Positions 3,001 through 63,350 of a stretch of 64,000 bases of DNA are shown here, piece by piece. Source of the DNA: Gracilariopsis chorda. Taxonomy: Eukaryota > Rhodophyta > Florideophyceae > Gracilariales > Gracilariaceae. Each line of letters begins with the position of its first letter. Within the stretch, counting starts at the first letter, position 1. The stretch covers positions 372,001-436,000 of the forward strand of contig NBIV01000010.1 of assembly GCA_003194525.1 (NCBI GenBank), given 5' to 3'. Below the pieces are notes generated by a model. It made no database searches, was not told the DNA's origin, and saw only the letters and a list, made by a program, of their open reading frames with translations. A program made the translations under genes and the position numbers.

Positions 3001-3616
3001 GGTTTCCGTCGCCGACGACACAGTCGTACTGGACATCGATAACCAGTTCGAACGCGTCTCACGCGACCGCGTAGCCCACGCGCCTGCGCCCCCTGAGGGC
3101 TCATCACCGCTCGTGACAATCCCGGAGGATGACCTCGTAACTCGGCCAACGGATATTCTGCTTCCGTCCCGCCCACCCGTCTTACCGCACCCGAAACGGG
3201 GACTCTCGGATCTTCCAATTGCCGATCAACCGGTTGGGCGCGCCGCGCGTATCGTGCAACGCACGCTTGACCCCAAACGCCTAACCGTTACTCCGCCCGC
3301 GGAGGTCCTTCATCCTGAACCCACCGCCCTCTCACCTAAGGAGGGGGAGGGACGGGAATCGATCGCGCCATCGCGGAAGGAAGCTCCGGCGTCGGACGGT
3401 GTCCCGTTTCATACGGCATCGTCGGATGAGCACCCCCGGAGCAGGGAGGAGTTGAACGCATCGCGAAGCGAGAAGGCCGTCTCCGCGGACCCGGATGCGC
3501 TCCTGTCGAGCGAGTCGCTGGGTAGCGAAGGAGGAAGTAGTGAACCGGACTCGGTGTGGTCACTAATGTGGCGAATGATATCTCCGAGCACGGAGCACAT
3601 ACAACCTCGGTCATAA
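1..3616 (+). pseudogene. pol: pol polyprotein of element A, one in-frame stop, 5'-partial
   Basis: The frame is open from the first bases and runs to a stop at 3614-3616, interrupted by one TAA at 797-799, where relatives carry an aromatic residue just before the RMPFGL motif; no indel is involved. RT is seen from about 500, with the catalytic YLDD motif near 900; RNase H follows (VDTDSS, NYSVSEKECLAVVWAL, HTDHSALRWLL, about 1350-1600). Integrase shows an HHCC zinc finger (about 2060-2210) and the D, D, E catalytic residues in VAIDILGEL, LLSDNGSQF and NGQVERFNRT (about 2265-2570). A Pro/Ser-rich acidic tail follows, without the chromodomain. The single stop makes this either a recently dead copy or a readthrough case; I favour a mutation. 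Confidence 0.9.
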
Positions 3617-14700: not shown

Positions 14701-14826
14701 GAGTTATCTACTTGCCGCCTTTGCTCGTCGAGTAGCGCCAGTAGACCCGAAAAGTCGGTTTCAGCCGACCCGTACACGGGAAAAGACGATGAGCACTCAG
14801 AAGGGAGCTCCCTACAACAGGGCTAG
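11772..14826 (+). pseudogene. pol: pol of element B: protease, deleted RT, RNase H, integrase
   Basis: It opens with an aspartic protease (VLDTGAAPNLI). At about 11995 the protease runs straight into the second half of RT just before YLDD; the first half of RT has been deleted. A TGA at 12219-12221 and a TAG near 12504 interrupt the frame, both at positions where element A reads a sense codon, and a one-base insertion near 12711 shifts it within RNase H. From 12715 the RNase H end and integrase are open to 14826. The integrase keeps its zinc finger and the second D and E, but the first catalytic Asp is Gly (VAIGILGEL against VAIDILGEL in element A). It cannot be functional. Confidence 0.85.
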
Positions 14827-33193: not shown

Positions 33194-33231
33194 GAAGCGC
33201 TCACTGGGGATCGGCGCGGCGCCAACCAAAA

Positions 33232-33468
33232 CGTGTCCACGCCCATTTCAATAAACGAAACGAAACGTGTGCACGCCCCATTGTAAGAAACGAAACAAAA
33301 CGTGTGCACGCCCATTTCAATAAACGAAACAAAACGTGTCCACGCCTATTTCAATAAACGAAACGAAACGTGTGCACGCCCATTTCAATAAACGAAACGA
33401 AACGTGTCCACGCCCATTTCAATAACCGAAACAAAACGTGTGCACGCCCATTTTAATAAACGAATGGA
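33232..33468 (+). repeat. 34-bp tandem repeat, seven copies
   Basis: Copies start at 33232, 33266, 33301, 33335, 33369, 33403 and 33437, with a unit beginning CGTGTGCACGCCCATTTCAA. Copies vary mainly between GTGTGCACG and GTGTCCACG. The array fills the gap between the DHCR7 and kinase genes and its last copy contains the final codons and stop of DHCR7. Confidence 0.9.
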
Positions 33469-41863: not shown

Positions 41864-41911
41864 TGAGTCACACCTGATAATGGTCTCTGAAAAAAGGATG
41901 ACACACCGTAT

Positions 41912-41983
41912 AGCATCGCTGGGTTTCGATCCCAGGACCGCTGGGTTATGGGCCCAGCACGCTAACCACTGCGCCACGATGCT
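41912..41983 (-). tRNA. tRNA-iMet: initiator tRNA-Met (CAT)
   Basis: A 72-base cloverleaf with all stems paired: acceptor AGCATCG/CGATGCT, D arm GCGC...GCGT, anticodon stem CTGGG/CCCAG around loop CCCATAA, and T stem CTGGG/CCCAG around ATCGAAA. The anticodon CAT corresponds to plus-strand 41948-41950. Eukaryotic initiator features are present: an A1-U72 pair, three G-C pairs closing the anticodon stem, and A54/A60 in the T loop in place of TTC. No intron, no encoded CCA. It supplies the start methionine for cytosolic translation. Confidence 0.97.
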
Positions 41984-42232: not shown

Positions 42233-43753
42233 ATGTTAGCGTCCTTTCGAAGCCTTACTCAGGCAGCGCCACGATTTCCGCATCCCAGATTCCTTGCCCA
42301 ACCGGCAATCCAACGCGACTCACGCTTCAAGCAGATCTCTGCCGCAGATGTGCAAGCCTTTCGCCAAATTCTGGGCGATGCCGCTGTGATAACCAATGCT
42401 GATGATCTTACTGCCTTCAATGTGGACTGGATGAATCGTTATCGCGGCGCAAGTACCATTGCTCTTAAACCAACTTCCACAGATCATGTTTCGCAAATCA
42501 TGCAGTACTGCAATCATCGCCTACTTGCAGTTGTGCCTCAAGGTGGAAATACTGGTTTGGTTGGAGGCAGTGTTCCGGTTTTTGACGAACTCATTCTTTC
42601 GCTTTCTGCAATGAATCAGATCGAACATCTAGACGAAACTTCTGGAGTTGTTACCACGCAGGCGGGGGTGGTGTTGGAGGCTTTGGATAATTATGTTGGC
42701 GCTGCAGGATATCGCGTTCCGCTTGACCTTGGCGCTAAGGGAAGTTGTCAAATCGGTGGAAACGTAGCAACCAACGCAGGTGGATCACGATTTGTTCGCT
42801 ACGGCCCGTTGCGTGCTAGCGTTGTCGGTATGGAAGCTGTCTTGCCTGATGGTCGTGTCTTTGACGCCATGACAACCGTCAGAAAAGATAACACCGGATA
42901 CGATCTCAAACAGCTTATGATAGGTGCAGAAGGTACTCTTGGAGTAATAACGCGTCTTGCCATTGCATGTCCCATGAAGAGTTCTTGCGTTGATACTATG
43001 GTCGTTCACGTCACTTCCTCAGAGCGCATTTCCCCACTGCTACGTCTGGCAAGACAATCACTGGGTGAGGTTCTGTCTGCTATCGAGTATATGGACTCTT
43101 CTTCTGTTCGTATGGCTGATACAAATCTGTCTCACGTTTCGGACCCACTCAGTATCCCCGATGATCCCCAACATTCTCTTGTTCTCATCGAATGCGCTGG
43201 AAGCAATGCCGAGCATAACCGCGAGAAACTAGAAGCATTTTTGGAAGCCGCCTTTGAACAAGAACTCGTCGCTGACGGCGTCATAGCAGAAAGCGAAACG
43301 CAAAGTAATGAGCTTTGGGAATTGAGAGAAAGCCTGCCAGAAGCGGTGTTAAAGGCTGGTGCAGCAGCTACTCTCAAGTATGATGTCAGTGTCCCAATCG
43401 CTCACTTCAATGAAATGATCGATGTAGCGAAAGAGCGTGTCAAGGACCTTGGCGCAGTTCAAGTCTGTGGATGGGGTCACATTGGAGATGAGAATCTTCA
43501 TCTTAATGTTGCAATTCAAGATGATACACAAAAGGATACTGCACAACTCCGATTGGAGCCCTGGGTGTATGAATATGTATCTGGCGTTGGCGGGAGTATT
43601 AGTGCGGAGCACGGTCTTGGTGTCATGAAGGCCGGTGCAATCGGATATTCAAAGGGTGATATCGCTGTTGACGTCATGCGCACCATTAAAGATGTTCTTG
43701 ACGTCAATGGGATTTGCAATCCATACAAGGTACTGACGACATCGTCACAATAG
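42233..43753 (+). CDS. D2HGDH: D-2-hydroxyglutarate dehydrogenase, mitochondrial
   Basis: 506 residues in one exon. An FAD enzyme that oxidises D-2-hydroxyglutarate to 2-oxoglutarate and passes electrons to the electron-transfer flavoprotein. The first 30 residues are Arg/Ser/Ala/Phe-rich without acids (MLASFRSLTQ), as in mitochondrial presequences. The VAO-type FAD domain shows PQGGNTGLVGGSVPVFDE (102-119) and IGGNVATNAGG; the C-terminal part has CGWGHIGDENLHLNV and SAEHGLGVMK, the metal and substrate region. NVDWMNRYRG before the FAD block is typical of D2HGDH; D-lactate dehydrogenase is the less likely alternative. Confidence 0.92.
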   Translation: MLASFRSLTQAAPRFPHPRFLAQPAIQRDSRFKQISAADVQAFRQILGDAAVITNADDLTAFNVDWMNRYRGASTIALKPTSTDHVSQIMQYCNHRLLAVVPQGGNTGLVGGSVPVFDELILSLSAMNQIEHLDETSGVVTTQAGVVLEALDNYVGAAGYRVPLDLGAKGSCQIGGNVATNAGGSRFVRYGPLRASVVGMEAVLPDGRVFDAMTTVRKDNTGYDLKQLMIGAEGTLGVITRLAIACPMKSSCVDTMVVHVTSSERISPLLRLARQSLGEVLSAIEYMDSSSVRMADTNLSHVSDPLSIPDDPQHSLVLIECAGSNAEHNREKLEAFLEAAFEQELVADGVIAESETQSNELWELRESLPEAVLKAGAAATLKYDVSVPIAHFNEMIDVAKERVKDLGAVQVCGWGHIGDENLHLNVAIQDDTQKDTAQLRLEPWVYEYVSGVGGSISAEHGLGVMKAGAIGYSKGDIAVDVMRTIKDVLDVNGICNPYKVLTTSSQ

Positions 43754-44970: not shown

Positions 44971-45540
44971 AGAGGTTTGGCGGAAGCTCGAGGGTGATCT
45001 GTCTGGCCCGCTGCTGATTAACCAGTTTACAGCCATCGTTGGTAGAACAAGTAACGTTTCGAGCGGCGCAAACAGCTCTCTCTCCCGCACTAGTGCTCAT
45101 TTGTCATGCTGCTGGGCTTGATCCGGCTTCTAATTATGCGCAGAGTAAGATTTTTTGTCCGCTGGGGTACAGATATGGAGTTGAAAGCTCTGATGATTCC
45201 TATGTTTCATGAGGTGTAGAAGGGACTCCACATCCAAGCGGGAGATCTTCCCGTCTTCAAGGCCAGGCCAACGGCTTGGAGCTATAGAGAAATAGAGCCA
45301 ACTATCATTGTTGTTGTTGATGTTTGTGGGAAAACGAATCCTAATCTTGACTTCGACGCACCAACTCTCTAAGAAGCTAGTCTGCCGCGAAGGCCAAGTC
45401 CTCGAGTAAGGCCCAGTTCCGGATCCATTTTGCTTCCTCCTGATCGCATCAGCAGGAAGGTCGGCACACCATGGCGGGCGGATTAAGGCATTGTGCTCAA
45501 AGCAGTGTCAATGGCGGTTCCCGAGTCAGTTGCGGTTCCA
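44971..45540. other. left flank of the palindrome
   Basis: No gene seen. Sequence here has no counterpart on the right flank (57489 onward), so it lies outside the inverted repeat. Confidence 0.5.
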
Positions 45541-45994
45541 GACTCTGCGTAAATATCACATAAGAAACCTAGCGGAACATGAGGCGTGATTATTTCTCCG
45601 CTGCCGTCGGACTGATCTTGTGACTGTGATGAGTGAACAAAGATTGGAATATCGGGAGCTACCGCATCAGCGCCGTCTTCAACGACCGCACGCTTCCATC
45701 GTCATGACCTTCCGCGTTGGGCGCCAGTGAATACTGCTCGTGCCCAGCCGTAGCTGGAAACATAGCTCTCGGTGTCAAGACCGCAGGATTCCTTTCCTCA
45801 CGATTCAATTCTGCGCTCTCCGTCACTGCACAGTGCGTTCATTGCCAACTTTTTCTACCACAATAAAGCACGCACGACCTGTTTCTTCTCCTGCAACAGA
45901 CTGCTTAGGCCATCAATTCTTCGAGAGGAAGAAACGTCAGAGATACCCGGATTCCAGGACGACTCGTTCTGTTCTGGCACAGCTGAAGACTGCG

Positions 45995-46815
45995 TCAGCG
46001 ACAACCCATCTGAGATCCGTTCGCGAGAGTCAGACTCAGACTTCTATCAGCCGACGAACTCATCTTACTCATAACACAGTGGGCTGTAGGAGACAATTGG
46101 AGCAGGCTCCTCTGTTTGACAAATGAAAACGCTTGTCCAAACTCGAAGCTGCTCGCTGAGTTGAACTTTGCGATGATTTGGGAAACCGTCCCCGGTTCAA
46201 CGCAGGGCGGTTCCTCTTCACATGGAAACCTGCTCCGCACGCTACGCGGAACCATGTCGATGCTTTCGTCACGGTTCAGTTCTCCCGCGTCCGATTTGCT
46301 GTGCTTTAATCGGGTACGAGTCCCGCTGTCGCCATGGTCATCCAGTAGAGCGTCCAAGTGTGTGATGTGAACAGAACTGTTTGGGTTCAAGGAAGGGCTA
46401 ATGGACATCCCGTCTACGACAGCAGGGCCATCGCCACAAGTGCCGGTGTCCTCCTCCTTGTCCAGTAGAGTATCCAAAAGCTGATGTGGAACAGCCCTGG
46501 TTGGGCTCGCAGAAGAGTTTTATTACTCATTCCCTCCAAGACGTGAGCGCCATCATAGCCGTTCAACTCACTTTCGAATACAACTGGTGTCTCTACCCAG
46601 TGTACTAAGGCTCTTCTCGGTGCGATGCGGTCATTCGCTTTTCTCTCCTTGCCGCCGCACAGTCTTCGGACAAAGGTCCCCATTTTCTTCTTGAACGACT
46701 TCAGGGGAGCAAGAAAAGAACTCGGTGAGAACTTCCTCGTACGAGCTCTTCCTGCGTTTAGAACCAAAGCCGGTTCTTGGTGGAAGGTGGTCGCCCTGTT
46801 GAATTCCGTCATCAT
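45995..46815 (-). pseudogene. gene with internal tandem repeat and a one-base frameshift, left copy
   Basis: An ATG at 46815 opens a 133-codon frame; the following 160 codons are in another frame with no ATG at their start. Across the junction the protein has a repeat of about 40 residues: GYDGAHVLEGMSNK...HIS resembles CGDGPAVVDGMSIS...HIT, and LLDTLLDKEEDTG resembles LDALLDDHGDSG. Aligning the DNA of the repeat units shows one base missing in the first unit, just before the frame change (near 46477). The whole would be about 270 residues, basic at the start and acidic, Ser-rich later. Function unknown. CCAACGGT cores lie upstream. Confidence 0.5.
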
Positions 46816-47174
46816 AAGCGTCTCTATAATTCCGATACAGAGTCTAGTTTCGTGAATGAACTCTCAAGACGTGTGTGGTGCTTGGAAGTTGAGATTCTGC
46901 CCGCCCGAGGCGCGGCTTTTATGCTGCCAACGGTTGACATCTCTGAGTGCATTCTCTACACAGAGGCTCCACATATGCCGTGGTGCTAATCTCGTACCCT
47001 TTCTATTGCGTGTCAATCGCTGCGAGTGTCAGCGGTAAAGAGCTCTCAGGTTGTTACCGCAACAAGTCCCACACTCCCAATTCACAACTTCTATATTGCG
47101 TGGAAGAAAGGTTGATGGCAAGGAAATCACAAATGCATATCTTTCGACATAGTCAGTTTGAGACATTGTGAGGT

Positions 47175-47185
47175 TACCAACGGTA
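47175..47185 (+). promoter_or_regulatory. TACCAACGGTA motif, left arm
   Basis: Perfect 11-mer about 360 bases upstream of the frameshifted gene; a second CCAACGGT core lies at 46926-46936. The palindrome partner is 55844-55854. Confidence 0.4.
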
Positions 47186-47815
47186 GCTTACCCATGTGTC
47201 GCGCATGAATCGCTGTGCTTGTGTCTACAAGTCTGGCATTCGAATAAAATGTCACCCCTCGCATTGACGGAGACAAACTTCGTCCAAAGTGGTGGCGGTC
47301 GAAGACGAACTCTCCTCTGTCCAACCCTCCCTTTTCTGGAAATAGTTATCGCGATCCCTGTACACTGAAGCCGTACAGATCGCTGTAGCCGCTCAATTGT
47401 CAAAAAGCACAGGCTGTGTGCCCGAACTGGAGTTCGCAATTGAAGTGCGTATGCAACGCAGAAAGAAGAAATGTATGTAGGAAAACCGTTACGGCGCTTG
47501 CGGAATCGGTATGACGATACCGCACGCCTCTAAGACACACATACATTATTCAACTGCGATACATCTACTCTCGTTAGAGAACTCAAGCAAACTTGAATGT
47601 GCCATTCTTACACATACACCTGCGCACAACCATCGGCTGTTCTATCCGAAAGAAATCAAGATGCACCAACGGGACTGAAATGCTTCAGTAGAGTTCCGTT
47701 GAAGAGAGACTCGAGGATCCTGCTCAGCGACTGTTTTACTGCGATATTTTACCAAAGGGAGTTACGCAGTTACTTCATTACTCTAAGCTTGGTACTACCT
47801 CACTACACGCTCAAT

Positions 47816-49597
47816 CTAGAGGGCACGGACTGGAATAATCCTTGGTTTGAACGGAGTCGGCTTGGAAACGCCGGGAACAGCAGGTAGGGGTCGCGGGAGG
47901 GGTCGCGGCCGACGGAGGCAGCGGCCTCTACTGCATATGCCGCTACGGCATCGGCTGCATGCGCCGCAGGTTTGACCCGGTTGGCGGAAGCGAATGCACT
48001 TTCCAGAGACGCATGACATACCCTTCGGGCATTTCTTCGCACGAGTGCAGCGGCGGCAAGTCGAAGGTCGAGGTGAGGGGCGCGGGTTCGACGGCGCAGC
48101 TGGGCAGGTGGCCGGAAGGGCGCAAAGGGTGCCGAGGCGAATCACGAATAGCTCGCCAACGAGAATCTTTTCCTTGTCCACACGGCCATTCTTCACCAAC
48201 TGCACACCAAGATCCTTGCCCTTGATATTGAGAGCACCGCGGAGCCGATGGCAACTGCTGCACTTCCCGATCTTCAAACCGCTGCCGGTAAACGCCGTAA
48301 ACGGCGGATTCTTGATGCGGGTATCGGCCTCCAAACCCAGCTTGGCACCAATGTTTCCCTCGATCCCCTTCTTGCCCAGAGTCAGTTCAACACCGACAGC
48401 CGGACGCACACCAACGAACCCAACTATGCTTGCTTCCGCGTTAAGCTCGTCTTTAAACTTGAAGCTGGAGCTGCCAGAGCTACCAGCGTTTGGAGGCAAC
48501 ACGTTCCGCGAGTCAAAACGTGGGGGAATGATTCGGGCGGTCACACGCTGCTTGGTTTCGTGCGACACCCGGATGCTTGCTTCGAGCGCAGCGCCAATCT
48601 CTACGTCGGCCACCCAGTCCACCTTGCCGAAAGCACCAGCTCGGATGCGACCAACAAACGGAATCTTGGCGGAGAACCCAAACTTGGGAATCGGACGCCT
48701 GAAAATCTCACCACTTCTTTCACCGCTGAGCTTGGCGTCCACGGTTAGCTGAGCATTGAGACGAGCGTTGAGACTTTGTTCCCATTGCACTTCGGTCTTA
48801 AACAGCCGCTTGACCTTGAACTTGTTTACGTTCGCCGAAAGAGAGGCATCTACTTCCAAAACAGCACCGGTAAACAGCTTGACTTTGGTTTTGTGAGAGA
48901 TTGTCGGACGAGCAACAACTGCAAGTGAGTCGTTGAGCATCAAGTTGCGGGACGTCGACAGAAGAGAGGTCGTGGTGGCGAACAGCGGGCTGTCGTTAAA
49001 CACAACTTTCTCCGGAAGAGCGGTGACGAACGCGGGCTCCTCGCTAATGTTGAAGTCAACTTCGGGAGCAACCTCGGAACCAGAGACAATGGTCATCTTC
49101 AAAGAGACCTGTTTTTCGTTCACGGAAACGGTGTCAATCATGTAGAACAGCGCATCATCAGCCTCGTCCACACCCTCAACAGGTTGGACTTCTGCACAGT
49201 GCTTCTCCCAATCGTCAACGTCAATGACAAATGCAGTGCCAGGAGCAAAGTCGGAGGCGTCCAGCTTACTACCGGAGAGCTCAGCTGTTGCCTTACGAGC
49301 AACTGCGTCGCGACTGCATGAGGTAATCTGAATACCGTCTTCGGCAAGCTCATCAAAAACAACAGCGTCTGTCTTCAGAGCAACGGAGAACTCCAGCAGT
49401 CGGGGGCTGGATACCACGAGGGACGCGGTATTAGACGTGGTCTCTACACCATCTGGGGCGGCCGAAATCAGCGTGCGCCCTCGAAGTATGGTAGGCGAAC
49501 CTGACGCGCTGGAAACGCGATGAAGCCTCGACGCAGATGCAAGGCTTGCAAACCAGAACGCCAAAAGTAGGCAGATACTCTTCACGACGGAGGTCAT
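47816..49597 (-). CDS. secreted protein with Cys-rich tail, left copy
   Basis: 593 residues in one exon with a clear signal peptide (VKSICLLLAFWFASLASAS). The long middle part (about residues 60-480) is rich in alternating hydrophobic and charged residues and probably beta-structured, with repeated sets such as SLSANVNKFKVKRLF and a basic RRPIPKFGFSAKIPF stretch. The C-terminal 100 residues carry 12 or more cysteines in short-spaced pairs (CRRCTRAKKCPKGMSC, CGACSRCRSGICSRGRC), like small disulphide or whey-acidic-type modules, followed by an Arg/Pro-rich end. No known family is recognised. It may be a cell-wall or extracellular-matrix protein. Its start faces the palindrome centre. Confidence 0.75.
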   Translation of the reverse strand: MTSVVKSICLLLAFWFASLASASRLHRVSSASGSPTILRGRTLISAAPDGVETTSNTASLVVSSPRLLEFSVALKTDAVVFDELAEDGIQITSCSRDAVARKATAELSGSKLDASDFAPGTAFVIDVDDWEKHCAEVQPVEGVDEADDALFYMIDTVSVNEKQVSLKMTIVSGSEVAPEVDFNISEEPAFVTALPEKVVFNDSPLFATTTSLLSTSRNLMLNDSLAVVARPTISHKTKVKLFTGAVLEVDASLSANVNKFKVKRLFKTEVQWEQSLNARLNAQLTVDAKLSGERSGEIFRRPIPKFGFSAKIPFVGRIRAGAFGKVDWVADVEIGAALEASIRVSHETKQRVTARIIPPRFDSRNVLPPNAGSSGSSSFKFKDELNAEASIVGFVGVRPAVGVELTLGKKGIEGNIGAKLGLEADTRIKNPPFTAFTGSGLKIGKCSSCHRLRGALNIKGKDLGVQLVKNGRVDKEKILVGELFVIRLGTLCALPATCPAAPSNPRPSPRPSTCRRCTRAKKCPKGMSCVSGKCIRFRQPGQTCGACSRCRSGICSRGRCLRRPRPLPRPLPAVPGVSKPTPFKPRIIPVRAL

Positions 49598-51213
49598 TGC
49601 AAAGTCGCGAAGAAGAAACGTGTTGCGTGGGCGAAGGGTTGAGATATATGAGCTTCGGGGAATGGAACCACGCGTTGGATTGGTTTGGACGGAAGCCGAT
49701 CCCTGATACTCAGTCGCCCACCCGTTTTATAGGCATCCAAGAGACTAGGAAACGAACGCGTCCGCGGGTGCGCGTGTTCATGATGGCAGTGACGAAGATG
49801 CTGAGCGTACGCAGTGCGCAGCCTGCTGCGGTACACGAGGAGCGGTCCTCTGAGCTCAGCCATGCTGCAACAGGGAGCGGATAACGATGAGATGCATCCC
49901 ATGGCAAATCACAGCCCATCATGGTACGGTACTCGTGGGGATCTGCGAAGGGCATATGGACAAGGTAAAGGGTTAGTTGCAGGCGGCTATGGAGCAACAT
50001 CTCAAACACGTTAGTAATGTACCACGTCACCGCTCAATTAACCACCCATGGGGTGGTTAATTGAGTGGTGAGTGGATCAAGGCCGAAGAATGCAACATTA
50101 TGTGGTGATCACTGCCACGTTGTGCCAGCAGCGCTTCTCGTTGATCCTATCAAAATGGCATCTCTTCACCCTTTTTTTTCAGGCTTGATTCGTTGATGCA
50201 CAGCGATCGTCATGATGACGTGATGGAGATGGTCCTCCGCAGAGCTTGTCAGTTCGTACGTTATTGCTACAACCATTCTTTAGAGAGTCTGGCCTTGCTC
50301 CCAGCGGAAAGAATAACAGCGTTAAAGATGCATCGTAAATCGTGGTAGCCCTCTACTCCTGTAGCGTGTCCACACTTACTGCATAACAAGGGGATTTCGA
50401 GGTAAGACAGACATGCTCTTTCTCAGAGCGATAGAATGCGCGGCACTAATAGTAACCTTCCAGATAGGTTACACGGTTTCCATTAGCAATGATTCCGTGG
50501 GTGTCTGGGTGAAGTTTCTTAGACCACTTTCTGTGAGTACGACTGTATCTGATCAGTCCGTGGAATGTGAAAAACTGTTTGTGTCCGCAAGTAAATCTTG
50601 CTAAGAAAAAAGAAGCTCGATAATCGAAAGTAGAGTATCTTTCTCTTTCTCACAAGCACATAAACCAACCTCTCAGTCAAAACAAAAGTGTAGCAAGACT
50701 TGCTTTTCAGTTTTCCACACAACAAGTATGATGCTAAATTGCAACAGCAGATGCTATACCGCAAAATAAGCTCCGCAAAATAAGCCGGTAGTGCTGGTCT
50801 ATAGATAACGGTGCTCATCCGTTCTGTCAATCGAAATTATCTTCGAGTATCGTCAGAAACTCAACACCTTTCGTACACGAGGATCCGCAGGCGTTATGTC
50901 AGGGATTGATGACGAGCGTTACCAAGGAAGAGGGGGTGTTTCTTTTATGCTAATTTATCTATGGCGCCATCGACATGAAAAAAAGCGTTGCTGAAGAAGA
51001 TTGGCATCACCTTGTTTCAAAGCTGGCTGCTCTGCCTCTAAACTTTCCAGAGTCGCGGCAGAGGGTGAAGAACAAAGGTGGAACCTATTCTTGAAAATGA
51101 AGTCTGACGAAGCTTGAAGGGAATCCTGGAGCCCCTATTAGTGCCTTACTGACTACTACAAAAAAATTGGGGTACCCTTCGTATTATAGTAGCTGGATTT
51201 ATTAGGCAGACTG
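49598..51213. promoter_or_regulatory. upstream region of secreted gene, left arm
   Basis: About 1.6 kb without a convincing gene. A strong hairpin occurs at 50033-50065: CTCAATTAACCACCC and its complement around three bases. The mirror copy is on the right arm. Confidence 0.5.
50033..50065 (+). repeat. 15-bp-stem hairpin upstream of secreted gene, left copy
   Basis: CTCAATTAACCACCC, ATG, then the exact reverse complement; a further few flanking bases pair with one mismatch. About 440 bases before the start codon. Confidence 0.85.
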
Positions 51214-51815
51214 GGCACCAATGCAAGCAGAGCCAGGTATCAGACGTATACGCAAGGATGACCTATTTGAGAAAAAGAGAGCAACTACTGAAGAAATTCT
51301 CCGGCAGCTGGGAGAAGTAGATTGCGAGGCCTAAACTGATGATTCGGTGGTAAGCCGATATTCGATGCCAACAACCTAAATAGAACCAGACATACTAATC
51401 AGGTATGACGACGAATTTCGCATGTGCTACAAGCTAGAGAGGGATAACCCCATATCTGTCGAAGACGATCACGTGCTTCAAGTGCGAGTATTGGACTTTG
51501 GAACGGTTGAAGGAAGAGGTTATTCAATCTGGTGGAAAGGAAGAATCGAACCTCAACCTCTGCTCTTAAGTGTACCAAACTATAACTTTGGTACCGATCT
51601 GTGTAGAATACACTGAAGCCTTTTTACAGTTTACAAGTTTCATCTTCCATGTAAGGTATCAAAGAATCCATCTAGGCTGTGCTGTGTTCTTTTTTCAGCC
51701 ATCGCCCTTAGAACTAATAACTTGTATTCCTTCTCGTTGTACCAAAAACGTGGCGCGAAATCAACCAGCGTTTTTCCTTGACAAGAATGAGTAACTTTTT
51801 TCCAGAAGAAATATT
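51214..51815. other. 602-bp unique spacer of the palindrome
   Basis: Not part of either arm. A 64-codon frame at 51422-51616 contains LDFGTVEGRGYSIWWKGRIEPQ, which resembles the start of the RNase H remnant at 44555 (YDSKTGEGGYATWW...EPQ). No intact gene. Confidence 0.6.
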
Positions 51816-52963
51816 CAGTCTGCCTAATAAAGCCAGCTACTATAATACGAAGGGTACCCCAATTTTTTTGTAGTAGTCAGTAAGGCACTAATAGGGGCTC
51901 CAGGATTCCCTTCAAGCTTCGTCAGACTTCATTTTCAAGAATAGGTTCCACCTTTGTTCTTCACCCTCTGCCGCGACTCTGGAAAGTTTAGAGGCAGAGC
52001 AGCCAGCTTTGAAACAAGGTGATGCCAATCTTCTTCAGCAACGCTTTTTTTCATGTCGATGGCGCCATAGATAAATTAGCATAAAAGAAACACCCCCTCT
52101 TCCTTGGTAACGCTCGTCATCAATCCCTGACATAACGCCTGCGGATCCTCGTGTACGAAAGGTGTTGAGTTTCTGACGATACTCGAAGATAATTTCGATT
52201 GACAGAACGGATGAGCACCGTTATCTATAGACCAGCACTACCGGCTTATTTTGCGGAGCTTATTTTGCGGTATAGCATCTGCTGTTGCAATTTAGCATCA
52301 TACTTGTTGTGTGGAAAACTGAAAAGCAAGTCTTGCTACACTTTTGTTTTGACTGAGAGGTTGGTTTATGTGCTTGTGAGAAAGAGAAAGATACTCTACT
52401 TTCGATTATCGAGCTTCTTTTTTCTTAGCAAGATTTACTTGCGGACACAAACAGTTTTTCACATTCCACGGACTGATCAGATACAGTCGTACTCACAGAA
52501 AGTGGTCTAAGAAACTTCACCCAGACACCCACGGAATCATTGCTAATGGAAACCGTGTAACCTATCTGGAAGGTTACTATTAGTGCCGCGCATTCTATCG
52601 CTCTGAGAAAGAGCATGTCTGTCTTACCTCGAAATCCCCTTGTTATGCAGTAAGTGTGGACACGCTACAGGAGTAGAGGGCTACCACGATTTACGATGCA
52701 TCTTTAACGCTGTTATTCTTTCCGCTGGGAGCAAGGCCAGACTCTCTAAAGAATGGTTGTAGCAATAACGTACGAACTGACAAGCTCTGCGGAGGACCAT
52801 CTCCATCACGTCATCATGACGATCGCTGTGCATCAACGAATCAAGCCTGAAAAAAAAGGGTGAAGAGATGCCATTTTGATAGGATCAACGAGAAGCGCTG
52901 CTGGCACAACGTGGCAGTGATCACCACATAATGTTGCATTCTTCGGCCTTGATCCACTCACCA

Positions 52964-52996
52964 CTCAATTAACCACCCCATGGGTGGTTAATTGAG
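52964..52996 (-). repeat. 15-bp-stem hairpin upstream of secreted gene, right copy
   Basis: Mirror copy of the hairpin at 50033-50065. Confidence 0.85.
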
Positions 52997-53431
52997 CGGT
53001 GACGTGGTACATTACTAACGTGTTTGAGATGTTGCTCCATAGCCGCCTGCAACTAACCCTTTACCTTGTCCATATGCCCTTCGCAGATCCCCACGAGTAC
53101 CGTACCATGATGGGCTGTGATTTGCCATGGGATGCATCTCATCGTTATCCGCTCCCTGTTGCAGCATGGCTGAGCTCAGAGGACCGCTCCTCGTGTACCG
53201 CAGCAGGCTGCGCACTGCGTACGCTCAGCATCTTCGTCACTGCCATCATGAACACGCGCACCCGCGGACGCGTTCGTTTCCTAGTCTCTTGGATGCCTAT
53301 AAAACGGGTGGGCGACTGAGTATCAGGGATCGGCTTCCGTCCAAACCAATCCAACGCGTGGTTCCATTCCCCGAAGCTCATATATCTCAACCCTTCGCCC
53401 ACGCAACACGTTTCTTCTTCGCGACTTTGCA

Positions 53432-55213
53432 ATGACCTCCGTCGTGAGGAGTATCTGCCTACTTTTGGCGTTCTGGTTTGCAAGCCTTGCATCTGCGTCG
53501 AGGCTTCATCGCGTTTCCAGCGCGTCAGGTTCGCCTACCATACTTCGAGGGCGCACGCTGATTTCGGCCGCCCCAGATGGTGTAGAGACCACGTCTAATA
53601 CCGCGTCCCTCGTGGTATCCAGCCCCCGACTGCTGGAGTTCTCCGTTGCTCTGAAGACAGACGCTGTTGTTTTTGATGAGCTTGCCGAAGACGGTATTCA
53701 GATTACCTCATGCAGTCGCGACGCAGTTGCTCGTAAGGCAACAGCTGAGCTCTCCGGTAGTAAGCTGGACGCCTCCGACTTTGCTCCTGGCACTGCATTT
53801 GTCATTGACGTTGACGATTGGGAGAAGCACTGTGCAGAAGTCCAACCTGTTGAGGGTGTGGACGAGGCTGATGATGCGCTGTTCTACATGATTGACACCG
53901 TTTCCGTGAACGAAAAACAGGTCTCTTTGAAGATGACCATTGTCTCTGGTTCCGAGGTTGCTCCCGAAGTTGACTTCAACATTAGCGAGGAGCCCGCGTT
54001 CGTCACCGCTCTTCCGGAGAAAGTTGTGTTTAACGACAGCCCGCTGTTCGCCACCACGACCTCTCTTCTGTCGACGTCCCGCAACTTGATGCTCAACGAC
54101 TCACTTGCAGTTGTTGCTCGTCCGACAATCTCTCACAAAACCAAAGTCAAGCTGTTTACCGGTGCTGTTTTGGAAGTAGATGCCTCTCTTTCGGCGAACG
54201 TAAACAAGTTCAAGGTCAAGCGGCTGTTTAAGACCGAAGTGCAATGGGAACAAAGTCTCAACGCTCGTCTCAATGCTCAGCTAACCGTGGACGCCAAGCT
54301 CAGCGGTGAAAGAAGTGGTGAGATTTTCAGGCGTCCGATTCCCAAGTTTGGGTTCTCCGCCAAGATTCCGTTTGTTGGTCGCATCCGAGCTGGTGCTTTC
54401 GGCAAGGTGGACTGGGTGGCCGACGTAGAGATTGGCGCTGCGCTCGAAGCAAGCATCCGGGTGTCGCACGAAACCAAGCAGCGTGTGACCGCCCGAATCA
54501 TTCCCCCACGTTTTGACTCGCGGAACGTGTTGCCTCCAAACGCTGGTAGCTCTGGCAGCTCCAGCTTCAAGTTTAAAGACGAGCTTAACGCGGAAGCAAG
54601 CATAGTTGGGTTCGTTGGTGTGCGTCCGGCTGTCGGTGTTGAACTGACTCTGGGCAAGAAGGGGATCGAGGGAAACATTGGTGCCAAGCTGGGTTTGGAG
54701 GCCGATACCCGCATCAAGAATCCGCCGTTTACGGCGTTTACCGGCAGCGGTTTGAAGATCGGGAAGTGCAGCAGTTGCCATCGGCTCCGCGGTGCTCTCA
54801 ATATCAAGGGCAAGGATCTTGGTGTGCAGTTGGTGAAGAATGGCCGTGTGGACAAGGAAAAGATTCTCGTTGGCGAGCTATTCGTGATTCGCCTCGGCAC
54901 CCTTTGCGCCCTTCCGGCCACCTGCCCAGCTGCGCCGTCGAACCCGCGCCCCTCACCTCGACCTTCGACTTGCCGCCGCTGCACTCGTGCGAAGAAATGC
55001 CCGAAGGGTATGTCATGCGTCTCTGGAAAGTGCATTCGCTTCCGCCAACCGGGTCAAACCTGCGGCGCATGCAGCCGATGCCGTAGCGGCATATGCAGTA
55101 GAGGCCGCTGCCTCCGTCGGCCGCGACCCCTCCCGCGACCCCTACCTGCTGTTCCCGGCGTTTCCAAGCCGACTCCGTTCAAACCAAGGATTATTCCAGT
55201 CCGTGCCCTCTAG
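53432..55213 (+). CDS. secreted protein with Cys-rich tail, right copy
   Basis: Differs from the left copy in one residue only, Arg for Lys at position 6 within the signal peptide. Same 593-residue layout: signal peptide, long beta-prone middle, 12 or more cysteines in the tail. The two genes are divergent, with their starts 3.8 kb apart across the palindrome centre. The reading frame is intact in both, and the one replacement is conservative, so both may be expressed. Confidence 0.75.
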   Translation: MTSVVRSICLLLAFWFASLASASRLHRVSSASGSPTILRGRTLISAAPDGVETTSNTASLVVSSPRLLEFSVALKTDAVVFDELAEDGIQITSCSRDAVARKATAELSGSKLDASDFAPGTAFVIDVDDWEKHCAEVQPVEGVDEADDALFYMIDTVSVNEKQVSLKMTIVSGSEVAPEVDFNISEEPAFVTALPEKVVFNDSPLFATTTSLLSTSRNLMLNDSLAVVARPTISHKTKVKLFTGAVLEVDASLSANVNKFKVKRLFKTEVQWEQSLNARLNAQLTVDAKLSGERSGEIFRRPIPKFGFSAKIPFVGRIRAGAFGKVDWVADVEIGAALEASIRVSHETKQRVTARIIPPRFDSRNVLPPNAGSSGSSSFKFKDELNAEASIVGFVGVRPAVGVELTLGKKGIEGNIGAKLGLEADTRIKNPPFTAFTGSGLKIGKCSSCHRLRGALNIKGKDLGVQLVKNGRVDKEKILVGELFVIRLGTLCALPATCPAAPSNPRPSPRPSTCRRCTRAKKCPKGMSCVSGKCIRFRQPGQTCGACSRCRSGICSRGRCLRRPRPLPRPLPAVPGVSKPTPFKPRIIPVRAL

Positions 55214-55843
55214 ATTGAGCGTGTAGTGAGGTAGTACCAAGCTTAGAGTAATGAAGTAACTGCGTAACTCCCTTTGGTAAAATATCGCAGTAAAACAGTC
55301 GCTGAGCAGGATCCTCGAGTCTCTCTTCAACGGAACTCTACTGAAGCATTTCAGTCCCGTTGGTGCATCTTGATTTCTTTCGGATAGAACAGCCGATGGT
55401 TGTGCGCAGGTGTATGTGTAAGAATGGCACATTCAAGTTTGCTTGAGTTCTCTAACGAGAGTAGATGTATCGCAGTTGAATAATGTATGTGTGTCTTAGA
55501 GGCGTGCGGTATCGTCATACCGATTCCGCAAGCGCCGTAACGGTTTTCCTACATACATTTCTTCTTTCTGCGTTGCATACGCACTTCAATTGCGAACTCC
55601 AGTTCGGGCACACAGCCTGTGCTTTTTGACAATTGAGCGGCTACAGCGATCTGTACGGCTTCAGTGTACAGGGATCGCGATAACTATTTCCAGAAAAGGG
55701 AGGGTTGGACAGAGGAGAGTTCGTCTTCGACCGCCACCACTTTGGACGAAGTTTGTCTCCGTCAATGCGAGGGGTGACATTTTATTCGAATGCCAGACTT
55801 GTAGACACAAGCACAGCGATTCATGCGCGACACATGGGTAAGC

Positions 55844-55854
55844 TACCGTTGGTA
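55844..55854 (-). promoter_or_regulatory. TACCAACGGTA motif, right arm
   Basis: Mirror copy of 47175-47185, upstream of the frameshifted gene on this arm. Confidence 0.4.
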
Positions 55855-56213
55855 ACCTCACAATGTCTCAAACTGACTATGTCGAAAGATATGCATTTGT
55901 GATTTCCTTGCCATCAACCTTTCTTCCACGCAATATAGAAGTTGTGAATTGGGAGTGTGGGACTTGTTGCGGTAACAACCTGAGAGCTCTTTACCGCTGA
56001 CACTCGCAGCGATTGACACGCAATAGAAAGGGTACGAGATTAGCACCACGGCATATGTGGAGCCTCTGTGTAGAGAATGCACTCAGAGATGTCAACCGTT
56101 GGCAGCATAAAAGCCGCGCCTCGGGCGGGCAGAATCTCAACTTCCAAGCACCACACACGTCTTGAGAGTTCATTCACGAAACTAGACTCTGTATCGGAAT
56201 TATAGAGACGCTT

Positions 56214-57034
56214 ATGATGACGGAATTCAACAGGGCGACCACCTTCCACCAAGAACCGGCTTTGGTTCTAAACGCAGGAAGAGCTCGTACGAGGAAGTTC
56301 TCACCGAGTTCTTTTCTTGCTCCCCTGAAGTCGTTCAAGAAGAAAATGGGGACCTTTGTCCGAAGACTGTGCGGCGGCAAGGAGAGAAAAGCGAATGACC
56401 GCATCGCACCGAGAAGAGCCTTAGTACACTGGGTAGAGACACCAGTTGTATTCGAAAGTGAGTTGAACGGCTATGATGGCGCTCACGTCTTGGAGGGAAT
56501 GAGTAATAAAACTCTTCTGCGAGCCCAACCAGGGCTGTTCCACATCAGCTTTTGGACACTCTACTGGACAAGGAGGAGGACACCGGCACTTGTGGCGATG
56601 GCCCTGCTGTCGTAGACGGGATGTCCATTAGCCCTTCCTTGAACCCAAACAGTTCTGTTCACATCACACACTTGGACGCTCTACTGGATGACCATGGCGA
56701 CAGCGGGACTCGTACCCGATTAAAGCACAGCAAATCGGACGCGGGAGAACTGAACCGTGACGAAAGCATCGACATGGTTCCGCGTAGCGTGCGGAGCAGG
56801 TTTCCATGTGAAGAGGAACCGCCCTGCGTTGAACCGGGGACGGTTTCCCAAATCATCGCAAAGTTCAACTCAGCGAGCAGCTTCGAGTTTGGACAAGCGT
56901 TTTCATTTGTCAAACAGAGGAGCCTGCTCCAATTGTCTCCTACAGCCCACTGTGTTATGAGTAAGATGAGTTCGTCGGCTGATAGAAGTCTGAGTCTGAC
57001 TCTCGCGAACGGATCTCAGATGGGTTGTCGCTGA
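56214..57034 (+). pseudogene. gene with internal tandem repeat and a one-base frameshift, right copy
   Basis: Same structure as the left copy: ATG at 56214, frame break near 56552 in the run GCTTTTGG, second frame to 57034. It differs by Thr for Ile close to the break. The identical missing base in both arms means that the break predates the last exchange between arms, or is tolerated through frameshifting or an unseen intron. Confidence 0.5.
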
Positions 57035-57488
57035 CGCAGTCTTCAGCTGTGCCAGAACAGAACGAGTCGTCCTGGAATCCGGGTATCTCTGACGTTTCTT
57101 CCTCTCGAAGAATTGATGGCCTAAGCAGTCTGTTGCAGGAGAAGAAACAGGTCGTGCGTGCTTTATTGTGGTAGAAAAAGTTGGCAATGAACGCACTGTG
57201 CAGTGACGGAGAGCGCAGAATTGAATCGTGAGGAAAGGAATCCTGCGGTCTTGACACCGAGAGCTATGTTTCCAGCTACGGCTGGGCACGAGCAGTATTC
57301 ACTGGCGCCCAACGCGGAAGGTCATGACGATGGAAGCGTGCGGTCGTTGAAGACGGCGCTGATGCGGTAGCTCCCGATATTCCAATCTTTGTTCACTCAT
57401 CACAGTCACAAGATCAGTCCGACGGCAGCGGAGAAATAATCACGCCTCATGTTCCGCGAGGTTTCTTATGTGATATGTACGCAGAGTC

Positions 57489-58140
57489 GGACGAGGGGCC
57501 AACGAACAGACAGACAGCAGGTGCGGTGTTTACCAACGTCAGCGGGGGTGGTGTGGATGTGCAACAGCGCCAAGGTAGTGAAATGCGTGCTGCCTTGAAT
57601 TCTGAAAGTTACTCAGGAGTCCAGTTGGCACATGCACGTCGTCTTCACGTGGGTTGACTTCTTTGCGAGAACGAGAAATCTTAGCTTAGCGAAATGAGTT
57701 CGCAGTCGTTTTTCGTGTCGGGACCAAAAGCGTGCAAGAGCCCATTGGCGAAGTGCAAGATTCTACTGTTGAAAAAGTAGTTCATGAGTCTAATCGGATT
57801 GTGAGAGAGTTGCGTGATTCAAGAAGAAGTTCATGGAAAGCGAATCCATTCCGAGAAGGTAGTTCTTCTTCGTTGTCGCAAGAAGCCGTTCCCAGTGTAA
57901 AAGTGTACGCAGTGTAAAAGAACATCAAGGAGAAGGAGCAGTTTGATCTCCGTCCTTTGATTCCAAGTGTGTGCGAAGGTCGAGTGAAGTGGCGAGAATG
58001 TACACTAGTTGCATATGCGCAAGGCAGAAGCTTCATTTCCACAATTCTGTTGCTATCCTTCTGGAGTTTATAGCTAGAACCGACGACCTCAGTAGCAAGA
58101 TATTTGAACTGCCCCGAAAAATACTGAACGGTAGAAGTGA
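57489..58140. other. right flank of the palindrome
   Basis: Only short frames with no recognisable product. Confidence 0.4.
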
Positions 58141-58261
58141 GATATGTGGCGAAAGGGTTAAGTTACCCAAGGCGATAGGGATAACTCCCAAGTAGGAGTG
58201 CCTATGTCCGGCTCTCGCCCAGCCAATGGGAGCGAGATACGAGAATTACCGACCTTTTTTT
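58141..58261 (+). ncRNA. candidate small structured RNA with T-run end
   Basis: Two consecutive hairpins, 58175-58205 (outer stem ATAGG/CCTAT, inner stem ACTCC/GGAGT) and 58214-58236 (CTCGC..CCC/GGG.GCGAG), are followed by seven T at 58255-58261, as in RNA polymerase III transcripts. It matches no small RNA family that I know. The start is not defined. Confidence 0.3.
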
Positions 58262-59010: not shown

Positions 59011-61065
59011 TCACACTTCACTTGCAACGACATCAACAGCCTCAAACGCAGTGCCACGTTCAGCAGCAATTCGAATAGCTTCCAAAGTGCGATCCACAGA
59101 AACAACGCCCAAATCACCATCCTGTCTCGACCGAATGCTCAAAGTCCCAGAGCCAGTTTCCTTCTCCCCAACAATAGCGAGCAAAGGAACACGCTCTTGT
59201 TCTCCGTTGCGAACCATCTTTCCAAGCCGCTCACCCGATGCATCAACTTCAACTCTCAAGCCAGTGTCCTTGGCTCGCAACGCAACCTCTTCACAGTAAC
59301 GTCTCGCTTCGTCCGTAACCGGCAACAGCTTCAGTTGCACCGGCGCAAGCCACAGCGGGAACTCTCCCGCGTACGACTCCACCAAAATGCCAAAGAAACG
59401 CTCCACAGAGCCGAAAATAGCGCGATGAACCATGATAGGGCGCTTTCTCTCGCCATCACGATCCACATACTCGAGTTCAAAGCGCTGCGGAAGATTAAAG
59501 TCACATTGCACGGTAGAGCATTGCCAAAGTCGCCCAATAGCATCCTTGATGTTGACATCAATCTTGGGTCCGTAAAACGCGCCACCGCCCTCATCAATCG
59601 AATACTGCCAACCTTTTGTCTCCAGCGCCTCCTTCAACGCTTCTGTAGCCTTGTCCCAAATATCATCCGACCCAACGCTCTTCTCCGGGCGTGTAGACAG
59701 CATGATCTCGTACTGTGTAAACCCGAAACGACCGAGAATACTCTCGGTAAGGTCCAGGACGCGTCGAATCTCATCCGCCAGCTGGTCCGGCAAGCAAAAG
59801 ATATGAGCATCATCCTGGGTAAACCCGCGCACTCGCATGAGTCCGTGCAGCGTGCCACTTCGTTCATAGCGATACACGGTGCCCAATTCAGCCCAACGCA
59901 GCGGCAACTCGCGGTAACTCCGCAGTCCGTCCTTGAACACAAGACAGTGGAAAGGACAATTCATGGGCTTGAGTTGGTACTGTTCGTGTTCCACATCCAT
60001 CTGATCAAACATGCTCTCCTGGTAGAAATCAAAATGGCCCGACGTCTTCCACAAATCGACGTTCGCCACATGTGGGGTGTACAACAACTCGTAACCATTA
60101 TCCACGTGCCTCTTCTTCCAAAAGTGCTCAATAATGGTGCGAATTCGACTGCCCTTGGGGTGCCAGAAGACCAGACCGCCGCCCGCAGCTTCCTGAATGG
60201 TGAAAAGACCGAGTTTCGCGCCCAAGACGCGATGATCGCGACGCTTGGCCTCCTCCTTCAAGCGGAGATACTCTTGCAACTGGTCTGGAGTTTCCCAGGC
60301 GGTGCCGTAAATTCGTTGCAGCATAGCATTTTTCTCATCGCCTCTCCAGTACGCACCGGCGACCGTTTCCAAAGCCACAGCCTTTGGATTCAAATTGCCC
60401 GTGCGTTCAACGTGTGGGCCCGCACAAAGATCCCACCACTTGTCGCCAATATGATACACGGTGATGGGGTCACTAATATCATTGAGTATCTGCAGTTTAT
60501 AGGGCTCTTGAATGGTTTCAATGCGGGTTCGGGCATCGTCGCGCGAAATCTGCTCACGGCGCAAGGGGAGGTTTTGACGGATGATCTTATCCATTTCCTT
60601 TTTAATGCGCTTTAAATCGCGGTCCGTGAAAGGTTGAGAATGGTCAAAATCGTAGTAAAAGCCGTTCTGAATGCAGGGTCCTATGGTCACTTGCGCGCGC
60701 GGAAAGAGGCGTTGTACGGCCATGGCCAGCACGTGGGCGGCGGTATGACGCAGTCGAAACAGGTGCGGATTCGAGTGATTGGTGGGAAGGGACAGTGGCT
60801 GGGGGGGCGGTTGTATGTGAGGGCTTGGCGTGTCCTTTGCTGCGGAGGTCACGGACGCGACCAAGCTGGGTGCGGAGCGACGGAACGGAGGAGGCGCGAC
60901 AGAACGTGACAGCGCGAGTCGGCGGGGGGGAAGGGAAGAGCGCAGACGCGCGCGCAGGGGCGCGGCGGCCACGAAGAACAGGCGGGACGGAGGGGACATG
61001 GCGCGGAGAAGAAGCTCGCCGAGCTCCCGAGCGGCGCGAGGTCGGAACGATGGGAAAGCTGCCAT
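59011..61065 (-). CDS. threonyl-tRNA synthetase, organellar, cyanobacterial type
   Basis: 684 residues from the first in-frame ATG at 61065. The first 80-90 residues are Arg/Ser/Ala/Pro-rich without acids, as in plastid or mitochondrial leaders. The enzyme then starts directly with the editing domain (HTAAHVLAMA, H107 and H111; DLCAGPH, C214 and H218) and has no N-terminal TGS domain, a trait shared with cyanobacterial ThrRS, which suggests plastid descent. The class II core has MNCPFH (zinc Cys), YRYERSGTLHGLMRVRGF with TQDDAHIF (motif 2), and SVERFFGILVE (motif 3); the anticodon-binding domain occupies the last 100 residues. It charges organellar tRNA-Thr and removes mischarged serine. It diverges from the RelA/SpoT gene. 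Confidence 0.95.
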   Translation of the reverse strand: MAAFPSFRPRAARELGELLLRAMSPPSRLFFVAAAPLRARLRSSLPPRRLALSRSVAPPPFRRSAPSLVASVTSAAKDTPSPHIQPPPQPLSLPTNHSNPHLFRLRHTAAHVLAMAVQRLFPRAQVTIGPCIQNGFYYDFDHSQPFTDRDLKRIKKEMDKIIRQNLPLRREQISRDDARTRIETIQEPYKLQILNDISDPITVYHIGDKWWDLCAGPHVERTGNLNPKAVALETVAGAYWRGDEKNAMLQRIYGTAWETPDQLQEYLRLKEEAKRRDHRVLGAKLGLFTIQEAAGGGLVFWHPKGSRIRTIIEHFWKKRHVDNGYELLYTPHVANVDLWKTSGHFDFYQESMFDQMDVEHEQYQLKPMNCPFHCLVFKDGLRSYRELPLRWAELGTVYRYERSGTLHGLMRVRGFTQDDAHIFCLPDQLADEIRRVLDLTESILGRFGFTQYEIMLSTRPEKSVGSDDIWDKATEALKEALETKGWQYSIDEGGGAFYGPKIDVNIKDAIGRLWQCSTVQCDFNLPQRFELEYVDRDGERKRPIMVHRAIFGSVERFFGILVESYAGEFPLWLAPVQLKLLPVTDEARRYCEEVALRAKDTGLRVEVDASGERLGKMVRNGEQERVPLLAIVGEKETGSGTLSIRSRQDGDLGVVSVDRTLEAIRIAAERGTAFEAVDVVASEV

Positions 61066-61191
61066 GCGTGCGCGGGGACCGCAGTCACAGAGAGCTGTGT
61101 GGCCGCACAACAGCGCCACGCGTACAGGGCTGGCGGCCGCAGCAAGCACACGTCAGCAGAACGTCAGCAAGGACGTAAGGTGCTGGCTGCA

Positions 61192-61547: not shown

Positions 61548-63350
61548 ATGTCCGCACCGGCGTTCGTCTCACTTGCACCGCTCCCGCTCATCCGTCACGC
61601 GCCGTTCGGCACATCCGCCAACACCCGTCATCCCTCTGTTAACCGCGCGCGAGTGGCCCCCACAGTATCAACGCTTGTAAAAGCGGCCCCTCCCGTGACG
61701 CCTCCCACGCCAGCAGATTGGTTAAGCTCTCGCGCTGCCCCAATCCTCTCGCAGAGCTCCGAAGCACAATGTGTTGCGCACAAGCATCACATGGTGCCAC
61801 CAGCATACTGCCCCCTGCGCAGCTCCATTCGCGAGCTGCAAAGCGCTCTGGAACAGCGCGTTCTGTACCTCGGCCCCGTGAACAGACACAAGGTTGCAAA
61901 GGCTGTTCAACTGGCCACAGAGGCGGTGGGAGCTCGTAGCGATGTGGTGCGGTACAATCTAACAGTAGCGCTAATCGTAGCCGACTTGCAAATGGATTGC
62001 GACACTCTTTGTGCAGCCATTTTGAACAAGCTTATCGGGCTGCCCGGAAGCACGTCAAACGACGTGCAACGTCACGTCGGATCGGACGTGCTCAAGATTG
62101 CAACGTTTGACAACCAGTTGCGACGCACGATAGAGCTGTGCATGCAGCCTCACTTCACGGAAATGTCGTTTGCGAACCTCCGCCAGCTGATTCTGGTGGC
62201 GGGCATGGACGAGCATCGCGCAATATCTCTGCAGCTTGCTCGGGCACTTTTGTCGATTCGCACGCTGGATAGGGTGCGGGATGAGAGCGTGAAACATGGT
62301 ATTGCGCGCCAGACGATGCATCTTTACGCGCCACTTGCCAATCAACTGGGCATTTGGTTTGTGCAGAGCGAGCTGGAAGAACTGGCATTCATGCACTTGC
62401 AGCCGGAGAGCTACCACATGGTGCGACAGCTGGTGGGCGCGCGTCGTCGAGAATGCGAAAGCACTCTAGCTCAAAGCAAACAGTTTTTGGAACGCGTACT
62501 AACCAAGTCAGCCAAGGTGCGCAGCGCAGCACGCTCAGTGACGGTGAAGGGGCGAGTGAAGGGTCTGTACTCTGTGTACCGCAAGATGAAAGGCAGCGGG
62601 AAGAAGGTGTGTGAAATCTACGACTTGCTGGCGCTGCGAGTGATTGTGCAGCCGAAACGCGCCGACGAAGGTGCGGAACGAAGCGCGTGCTACGCGGTGG
62701 CAGAGGTGATTGAGGCGCATTACGACACGCTGGAGCGGCGCGCAAAGGACTACATTGAACGGCCCAAACGAAATGGATACCGCAGTTTACACCTTACGGT
62801 GCTGACGGCGGAACGCGCCACGCCGCTGGAAATCCAAATCAGGACGGACAAGATGCACCACGTTGCCGAGTTTGGCGCGGCGGCGCACTGGATTTACAAG
62901 GAAAAAAGGGGCACGGAGAGCGTGGGGGGCGCTGCTTGGGCACGGCACGGCGGCGGCGGCGGCGGCAAGACGATCATGGTGCGCATGAAAGCGGCCAGCG
63001 CAAGTGAAAGCGAGGGCGAGCTGGACATGGAGTCGGCGAGCAAGCAGCTTTCGGCGCTGGCGTGCTCGCGCGCGGGGCGACGCAGCGCGGGCGCGGGCGA
63101 CGAGGACGTGCTGCGACGCGGCTACGTGACGTGCATGGCGTCGGCCATCCGCGCGAGCAGGGTGATTGTGGCGGCGGCTGGGCAGCTGTACGGGCTGGCG
63201 GTGGGGTCGACGCTGATGGACCTGGCGCGCGGGCTGGGCGTGGCGGGGCTGGGCGCCATTGCGGTGGTGAACGGGTCGGTGGCGCCGCTGACGCAGCGGC
63301 TGGAGATGAACGACATTGTGCGCTTCATCTGCGCGCTGCCGGAGGCTTGA
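61548..63350 (+). CDS. RelA/SpoT homologue, (p)ppGpp synthetase-type
   Basis: 600 residues, one exon. The first 60 residues are Ser/Ala/Pro/Arg-rich, a likely plastid transit peptide. Residues about 115-265 correspond to the HD hydrolase domain, but where the HD pair should be the sequence reads NK (160-161), so hydrolase activity is probably lost. The synthetase domain is complete: KGRVKGLYSVYRKM (R336, K338), YDLLALRVIV (D359), RPKRNGYRSLHLTV (Y411) and LEIQIRTDKMHHVAEFGAAAHW (E428). A Gly-rich insert follows and then a TGS-like end (about 540-595). It would make (p)ppGpp from GTP/GDP and ATP to tune plastid transcription and translation. Confidence 0.93.
   Translation: MSAPAFVSLAPLPLIRHAPFGTSANTRHPSVNRARVAPTVSTLVKAAPPVTPPTPADWLSSRAAPILSQSSEAQCVAHKHHMVPPAYCPLRSSIRELQSALEQRVLYLGPVNRHKVAKAVQLATEAVGARSDVVRYNLTVALIVADLQMDCDTLCAAILNKLIGLPGSTSNDVQRHVGSDVLKIATFDNQLRRTIELCMQPHFTEMSFANLRQLILVAGMDEHRAISLQLARALLSIRTLDRVRDESVKHGIARQTMHLYAPLANQLGIWFVQSELEELAFMHLQPESYHMVRQLVGARRRECESTLAQSKQFLERVLTKSAKVRSAARSVTVKGRVKGLYSVYRKMKGSGKKVCEIYDLLALRVIVQPKRADEGAERSACYAVAEVIEAHYDTLERRAKDYIERPKRNGYRSLHLTVLTAERATPLEIQIRTDKMHHVAEFGAAAHWIYKEKRGTESVGGAAWARHGGGGGGKTIMVRMKAASASESEGELDMESASKQLSALACSRAGRRSAGAGDEDVLRRGYVTCMASAIRASRVIVAAAGQLYGLAVGSTLMDLARGLGVAGLGAIAVVNGSVAPLTQRLEMNDIVRFICALPEA

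Follow-up and report, generated by a model that had tools for sequence, protein, structure and literature searches.

A contig of the red seaweed Gracilariopsis chorda carries an interrupted palindrome of about 11.9 kb, which we consider somewhat likely to have arisen by recent, non-homologous inverted duplication through error-prone template-switch repair, with the left arm as the new one. Large, near-identical palindromes are discussed mostly for sex chromosomes. The one described here is compact and sharply bounded, and a third copy of part of its arms serves as a built-in outgroup, allowing the newer arm to be named and the junctions to be read. It lies within a window of 64,000 nucleotides, the whole stretch of DNA analyzed (C10:372001-436000; contig C10 has 637,882 bp in an assembly of 91,333,945 bases and 1,081 contigs). 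Positions are those of the window unless a contig is given. The features are as follows.

45308 to 45526, unstranded: piece of a dispersed repeat of about 335 bp, stopping shortly before the left arm
45527 to 45540, unstranded: filler of 14 bp between the dispersed repeat and the left arm, holding an 8-base word that recurs 18 bp upstream
45541 to 51213, minus strand: left arm (5,673 bp), probably the newer, inverted copy, from arm pairing and a left flank not alignable to the flank of the third copy
45541 to 47385, minus strand: outer 1.85 kb of the left arm, a decayed relative of the 483-aa frame in the third copy (84-85% match)
47816 to 49597, minus strand: left copy of the 593-aa gene, an intact open reading frame with Lys at codon 6, corresponding to BWQ96_01291 (Lys at residue 6)
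50022 to 50075, unstranded: 54-nt hairpin of the left arm, a self-inverted match and mirror of the folded right-arm hairpin
51214 to 51815, unstranded: spacer, 602 bp, with LINE-like repeat fragments up to about 51556 and one full-length match in the assembly
51816 to 57488, plus strand: right arm (5,673 bp), probably the older copy, since homology to the third copy continues past 57488
52954 to 53007, unstranded: 54-nt hairpin of the right arm (DNA fold z of -8.02; 0 of 200 shuffles as good)
53432 to 55213, plus strand: right copy of the 593-aa gene, an intact open reading frame with Arg at codon 6
55644 to 57488, plus strand: outer 1.85 kb of the right arm, the same decayed gene (84-85% match; tblastx)

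Geometry of the palindrome

The two arms are 99.91% identical and pair base for base (x with 103029-x) over 5,673 bp each, with zero indels; beyond either edge the pairing ceases. This bears out the arm and spacer lengths of the original prediction, and the length of the arms excludes a chance origin of the pairing. Only four mismatches had been noticed earlier; we count five, at 45552, 45571, 46472, 49581, and 51197. Three of the five lie no more than 31 bp from an arm edge, in diverged margins of 31 and 17 bp. The binomial probability of this clustering is 6e-6 for the margins as seen and 1.3e-5 for 31 bp at either arm end, the zone having been picked post hoc. All three edge differences are G in the right arm versus T in the left arm, and the two interior differences are transitions.

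The DNA differs on the two outer flanks, consistent with an interrupted palindrome rather than a simple fold-back, as had been proposed. The flanks and spacer had also been called unique. Indeed, the left flank, right flank, and spacer each have one full-length match in the assembly, but all three contain repeated parts, including a short repeated stretch at about 58092-58147 in the right flank.

A third copy points to the left arm as the newcomer

The outer 1.85 kb of each arm has a third copy 34 kb away on the same contig (C10:463051-464896), with 84-85% identity. In this copy the matching region is spanned by a 483-aa open frame. In the outer arm, the corresponding reading is scattered over three frames with stops, as shown on the right arm.

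To place the arms relative to this outgroup, we aligned their flanks with the flank of the third copy and assessed significance by block shuffles. For the right flank, the scores were reached by 0 of 500 and 0 of 500 shuffles (two DNA scores) and by 0 of 300 (protein), and the continuation of homology is also seen by tblastx. For the left flank, 336 of 500 and 476 of 500 shuffles (DNA) and 163 of 300 (protein) reached the scores. Because homology to the third copy crosses the edge of the right arm only, the surroundings of the right arm are probably the older ones, with the left arm probably an inverted newcomer. Within the region shared with the third copy, two of the three arm differences (45571 and 46472) have the right-arm base in the third copy. 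The remaining difference, at 45552, shows the left-arm base in the third copy, adjoining another change; this site is ambiguous for arm polarity or points the other way.

Elsewhere in the assembly, decayed relatives of the arm gene and the outer-arm gene lie close together in the opposite order (C169:37026-39138).

Both edges of the left arm adjoin repeat fragments

The end of the left flank is part of a dispersed repeat with at least 41 other matches (40 of 129 candidates scored). Homology of the window to this repeat ends at 45522-45526, while seven other copies align with one another for about 115 bp further. The 14-bp filler that separates the repeat from the arm contains the word GCGGTTCC, which occurs a second time 18 bp upstream. 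Such a word is found at 122 of 8,858 background positions, and as a mark of templated insertion it is suggestive only.

At the inner edge, the spacer carries part of a second repeat, with 31 other matches; 12- or 13-bp direct repeats surround three of the examined copies, and we label this repeat LINE-like. The spacer begins 43 to 44 bp inside the repeat start common to four other copies, and one base is shared with the arm. The earlier start of those four copies rules out the spacer boundary as a true repeat end, and with it a datable flush junction. A further copy, on contig C79, begins no more than 2 bp from the start of the spacer copy, so the inner fragment could simply be a truncated insertion of the usual kind and not a repeat cut by the duplication event.

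The inverted arm thus sits between unrelated sequences, with repeat fragments on both sides. That both of its edges meet unrelated repeat fragments is the pattern of a non-homologous insertion.

Proposed origin by template-switch repair

In the scenario that we favor, the source would be a 5.67-kb segment comprising the gene and its decayed neighbor, now the right arm. This segment would have been copied in inverted orientation and set about 0.6 kb to the left, between two repeat fragments, by a replication-type, non-homologous repair with two template switches (MMBIR- or polymerase-theta-like). Error-prone repair synthesis could have left the three base changes close to the junctions. The outcome would be two practically identical, divergent copies of the gene for a probably secreted protein, possibly with doubled dosage. 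We infer the direction of copying, the repair mechanism, and the recent age of the duplication.

The available parts of two papers describe junctions of this type as marked by microhomology, templated insertions, and more point mutations (PMC4352052), with 2 to 5 bp of microhomology at MMBIR junctions (PMC2621351). The palindrome resembles such duplications, as portrayed there, in its nearby inverted copy and repeat-adjoining ends, and possibly in its point changes near the junctions and a templated filler, and differs from them in having little or no microhomology and in being read from one assembly (PMC2621351, PMC4352052). By eye, in present-day sequence, no junction microhomology of 2 to 5 bp is seen: one base is shared at the inner junction and none is evident at the outer one. 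This lack counts against an MMBIR-like origin, and we liken the palindrome to an MMBIR inverted duplication in how it works without classing it as one. Fold-back inverted duplications are usually terminal and have the same flank on either side, whereas the far flank of the palindrome is different DNA, so two switches would be needed. Fold-back products of double-strand breaks, in the accessible portions of PMC3907307 and PMC10622511, are like the palindrome in having an inverted copy and a short spacer.

Alternative explanations

Clustering of differences at the arm edges is also expected after gene conversion. The palindrome could be older, its arms homogenized by conversion while only the outermost bases, inefficiently converted, drifted; recombination between the arms would then also flip the spacer. 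We regard this as unlikely, though it deserves serious consideration: three of the five differences do lie at arm edges, and the identity of 99.91% is within the range that the available text of PMC8981503 reports for converting palindromes. The arm difference here is 8.8e-4, compared with a median of 4.7e-4 for primate X palindromes in the same text, and identity alone therefore cannot decide between conversion and a recent event. A single recent event is favored by the shortness of the diverged margin, by the single type to which its three changes belong, and by a GC content in the outer arm no higher than would be expected from the third copy (0.511 versus 0.505). Further, at the sole clear edge site the change falls in the left copy. 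Taken together, these points are not decisive. The original prediction had left the choice between recent origin and arm-to-arm conversion; the third copy and the junctions lean toward the former, with conversion holding the smaller chance. Also unlikely is a long-lived red-algal palindrome that is homogenized by conversion, flips its spacer, and maintains both copies of a secreted cysteine-rich protein from a lineage-expanded family. Should conversion prove true in related strains, palindrome maintenance would be extended to red algae. Sex-chromosome palindromes had been invoked as a parallel, and the palindrome does have arms more than 99% identical around a spacer. In the parts available, the willow W (PMC7023750) and primate X (PMC8981503) examples share with it large inverted repeats, arms above 99.9% identity, a unique spacer, and arm genes. 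Their arms, at about 20 kb and with a median close to 37 kb, are much larger than the 5.7-kb arms here (PMC7023750, PMC8981503). Unlike them, the G. chorda palindrome has a left arm that the third copy dates as a probable newcomer. The main text of a paper on Gracilaria UV chromosomes (PMC12502185) does not mention palindromes, gene conversion, or Gracilariopsis, and looking for the neighboring genes in that text yielded no usable link to sex chromosomes; the likeness is supported in shape only.

An assembly artefact, such as a fold-back or chimeric read or two misjoined haplotypes, is improbable. Caution is due since the assembly does hold redundant stretches: C122 and C268 share 99.64% identity over 4,475 bp and 100% over 1,000 bp, C283 and C306 98.2% over 3,730 bp, and C527 and C368 99.97% over 3,178 bp. 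These pairs are either retained haplotypes or large duplications. The authors of PMC8304369 found no large-scale duplications, according to the part of that paper available. An artefact would have to account for different DNA on the outer flanks, a 602-bp spacer, and a left arm joined to unrelated DNA at two separate places. Two separate false junctions together with five base differences make it unlikely, as a simple fold-back error gives neither. Among 24 matches to the arm, only the two arms are full length, and other contigs hold no further full-arm copy. Long inverted repeats with sharp ends would also suit a mobile element whose terminal inverted repeats are very long, a reading that we consider highly improbable. 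There is no target-site duplication (the left-arm flank ends in TTCCA and the right-arm flank begins with GGACG), and the assembly has no other full copy; on these two grounds the mobile-element reading was rejected. In addition, homology to the third copy passes through the right end, and the arm gene has no Pfam match at 1e-3. Recent inverted duplication by template-switch repair would be an ordinary mechanism in an uncommon setting, and the palindrome resembles the product of a recent accident of repair more than a novel type of system. In the titles and abstract openings of the open-access papers listed, no such red-algal palindrome is reported, which is not proof of absence.

As a separate observation on the redundant stretches, two places that match between C122 and C268 lie about 32 kb further apart on one of these contigs than on the other.

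The arm gene belongs to a gracilarialean family

From the spacer outward, each arm contains about 1.6 kb without an open reading frame longer than 115 aa, the 593-aa gene, and the decayed gene. The two 593-aa genes are divergent, reading away from the spacer, and codon 6 is the only one at which their proteins differ. From its hydrophobic, signal-like N terminus, the protein is predicted to be probably secreted; it contains 17 cysteines, 14 of them after residue 445. These features agree with the earlier description of an intact, secreted, Cys-rich gene on each arm.

The best protein match is the hypothetical protein BWQ96_01291 of G. chorda. Eight relatives were found at E of 1e-3 or less among 8,000 scored candidates; those named comprise four from G. 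chorda, one from Gracilaria domingensis, and one from Agarophyton chilense. In the G. chorda genome, the gene has 35 matches, 19 of which contain stops when translated without introns. Full-length open relatives are present on C351 (600 codons) and C53 (607 codons), and the remaining open matches are pieces or weaker relatives. Comparison of the arm gene with these relatives gives dN/dS values of 0.109 for C351 (dS of 1.14) and 0.102 for C53 (dS of 1.43); a ratio of about 0.1 indicates that the family is under purifying selection, as judged from these coding sequences. In a midpoint-rooted tree of seven sequences cut to their first 470 to 480 residues, the G. chorda genes, three in all, form one group (96/99) that is separate from the proteins of G. 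domingensis and A. chilense (90/94), and the two remaining proteins fall outside. This grouping suggests that the family probably expanded in the Gracilariopsis line.

The arm gene has no match in NCBIfam at E up to 1, and a profile of seven sequences matched none of the solved structures at the same threshold. In Pfam searched at E up to 10, the Cys-rich tail gives only sub-cutoff matches, to the DUF7107, STIG1-like, and EB models.

In the deposited BWQ96_01291 (P0002, 575 aa), the open frame is left after KCPK, and the Cys-rich tail is for the most part missing. This tail is kept in the relatives P0003, P0004, P0007, and P0008. The deposited gene model probably contains a false intron.

Neighboring genes and hairpins

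The palindrome is bordered on the left by a gene for a FAD-linked dehydrogenase (42233-43753) and on the right by one for threonyl-tRNA synthetase (59011-61149). In G. domingensis, the nearest proteins to both neighbors are encoded on one contig of 175,171 bp, and the only relative of the arm gene listed for that species is encoded on another, of 291,098 bp. Going by the lengths of the contigs alone, this suggests that the two neighbors are linked in that species with no listed family member on their contig, so the arm gene may have entered the Gracilariopsis line first and been doubled later.

In each arm the hairpin precedes the gene by about 430 bp, and its 15-base core is found exactly only in the two arms across the assembly. 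A further near-perfect hairpin of 54 bp, of unrelated sequence, is present at C10:441157-441210. Within the window, Rfam gives no match at gathering scores; a tRNA-Met is located outside the arms, at 41911-41983.

Other features of the window include an open reading frame with RelA/SpoT and HD domains (61548-63350) adjoining the threonyl-tRNA synthetase gene. Retroelement open reading frames occur at 812-3616 and 12715-14826 (reverse transcriptase, RNase H, and integrase, or integrase domains only), and seven units of a 34-bp tandem repeat (33227-33464) lie between a protein kinase open reading frame and one of the ERG4/ERG24 family.
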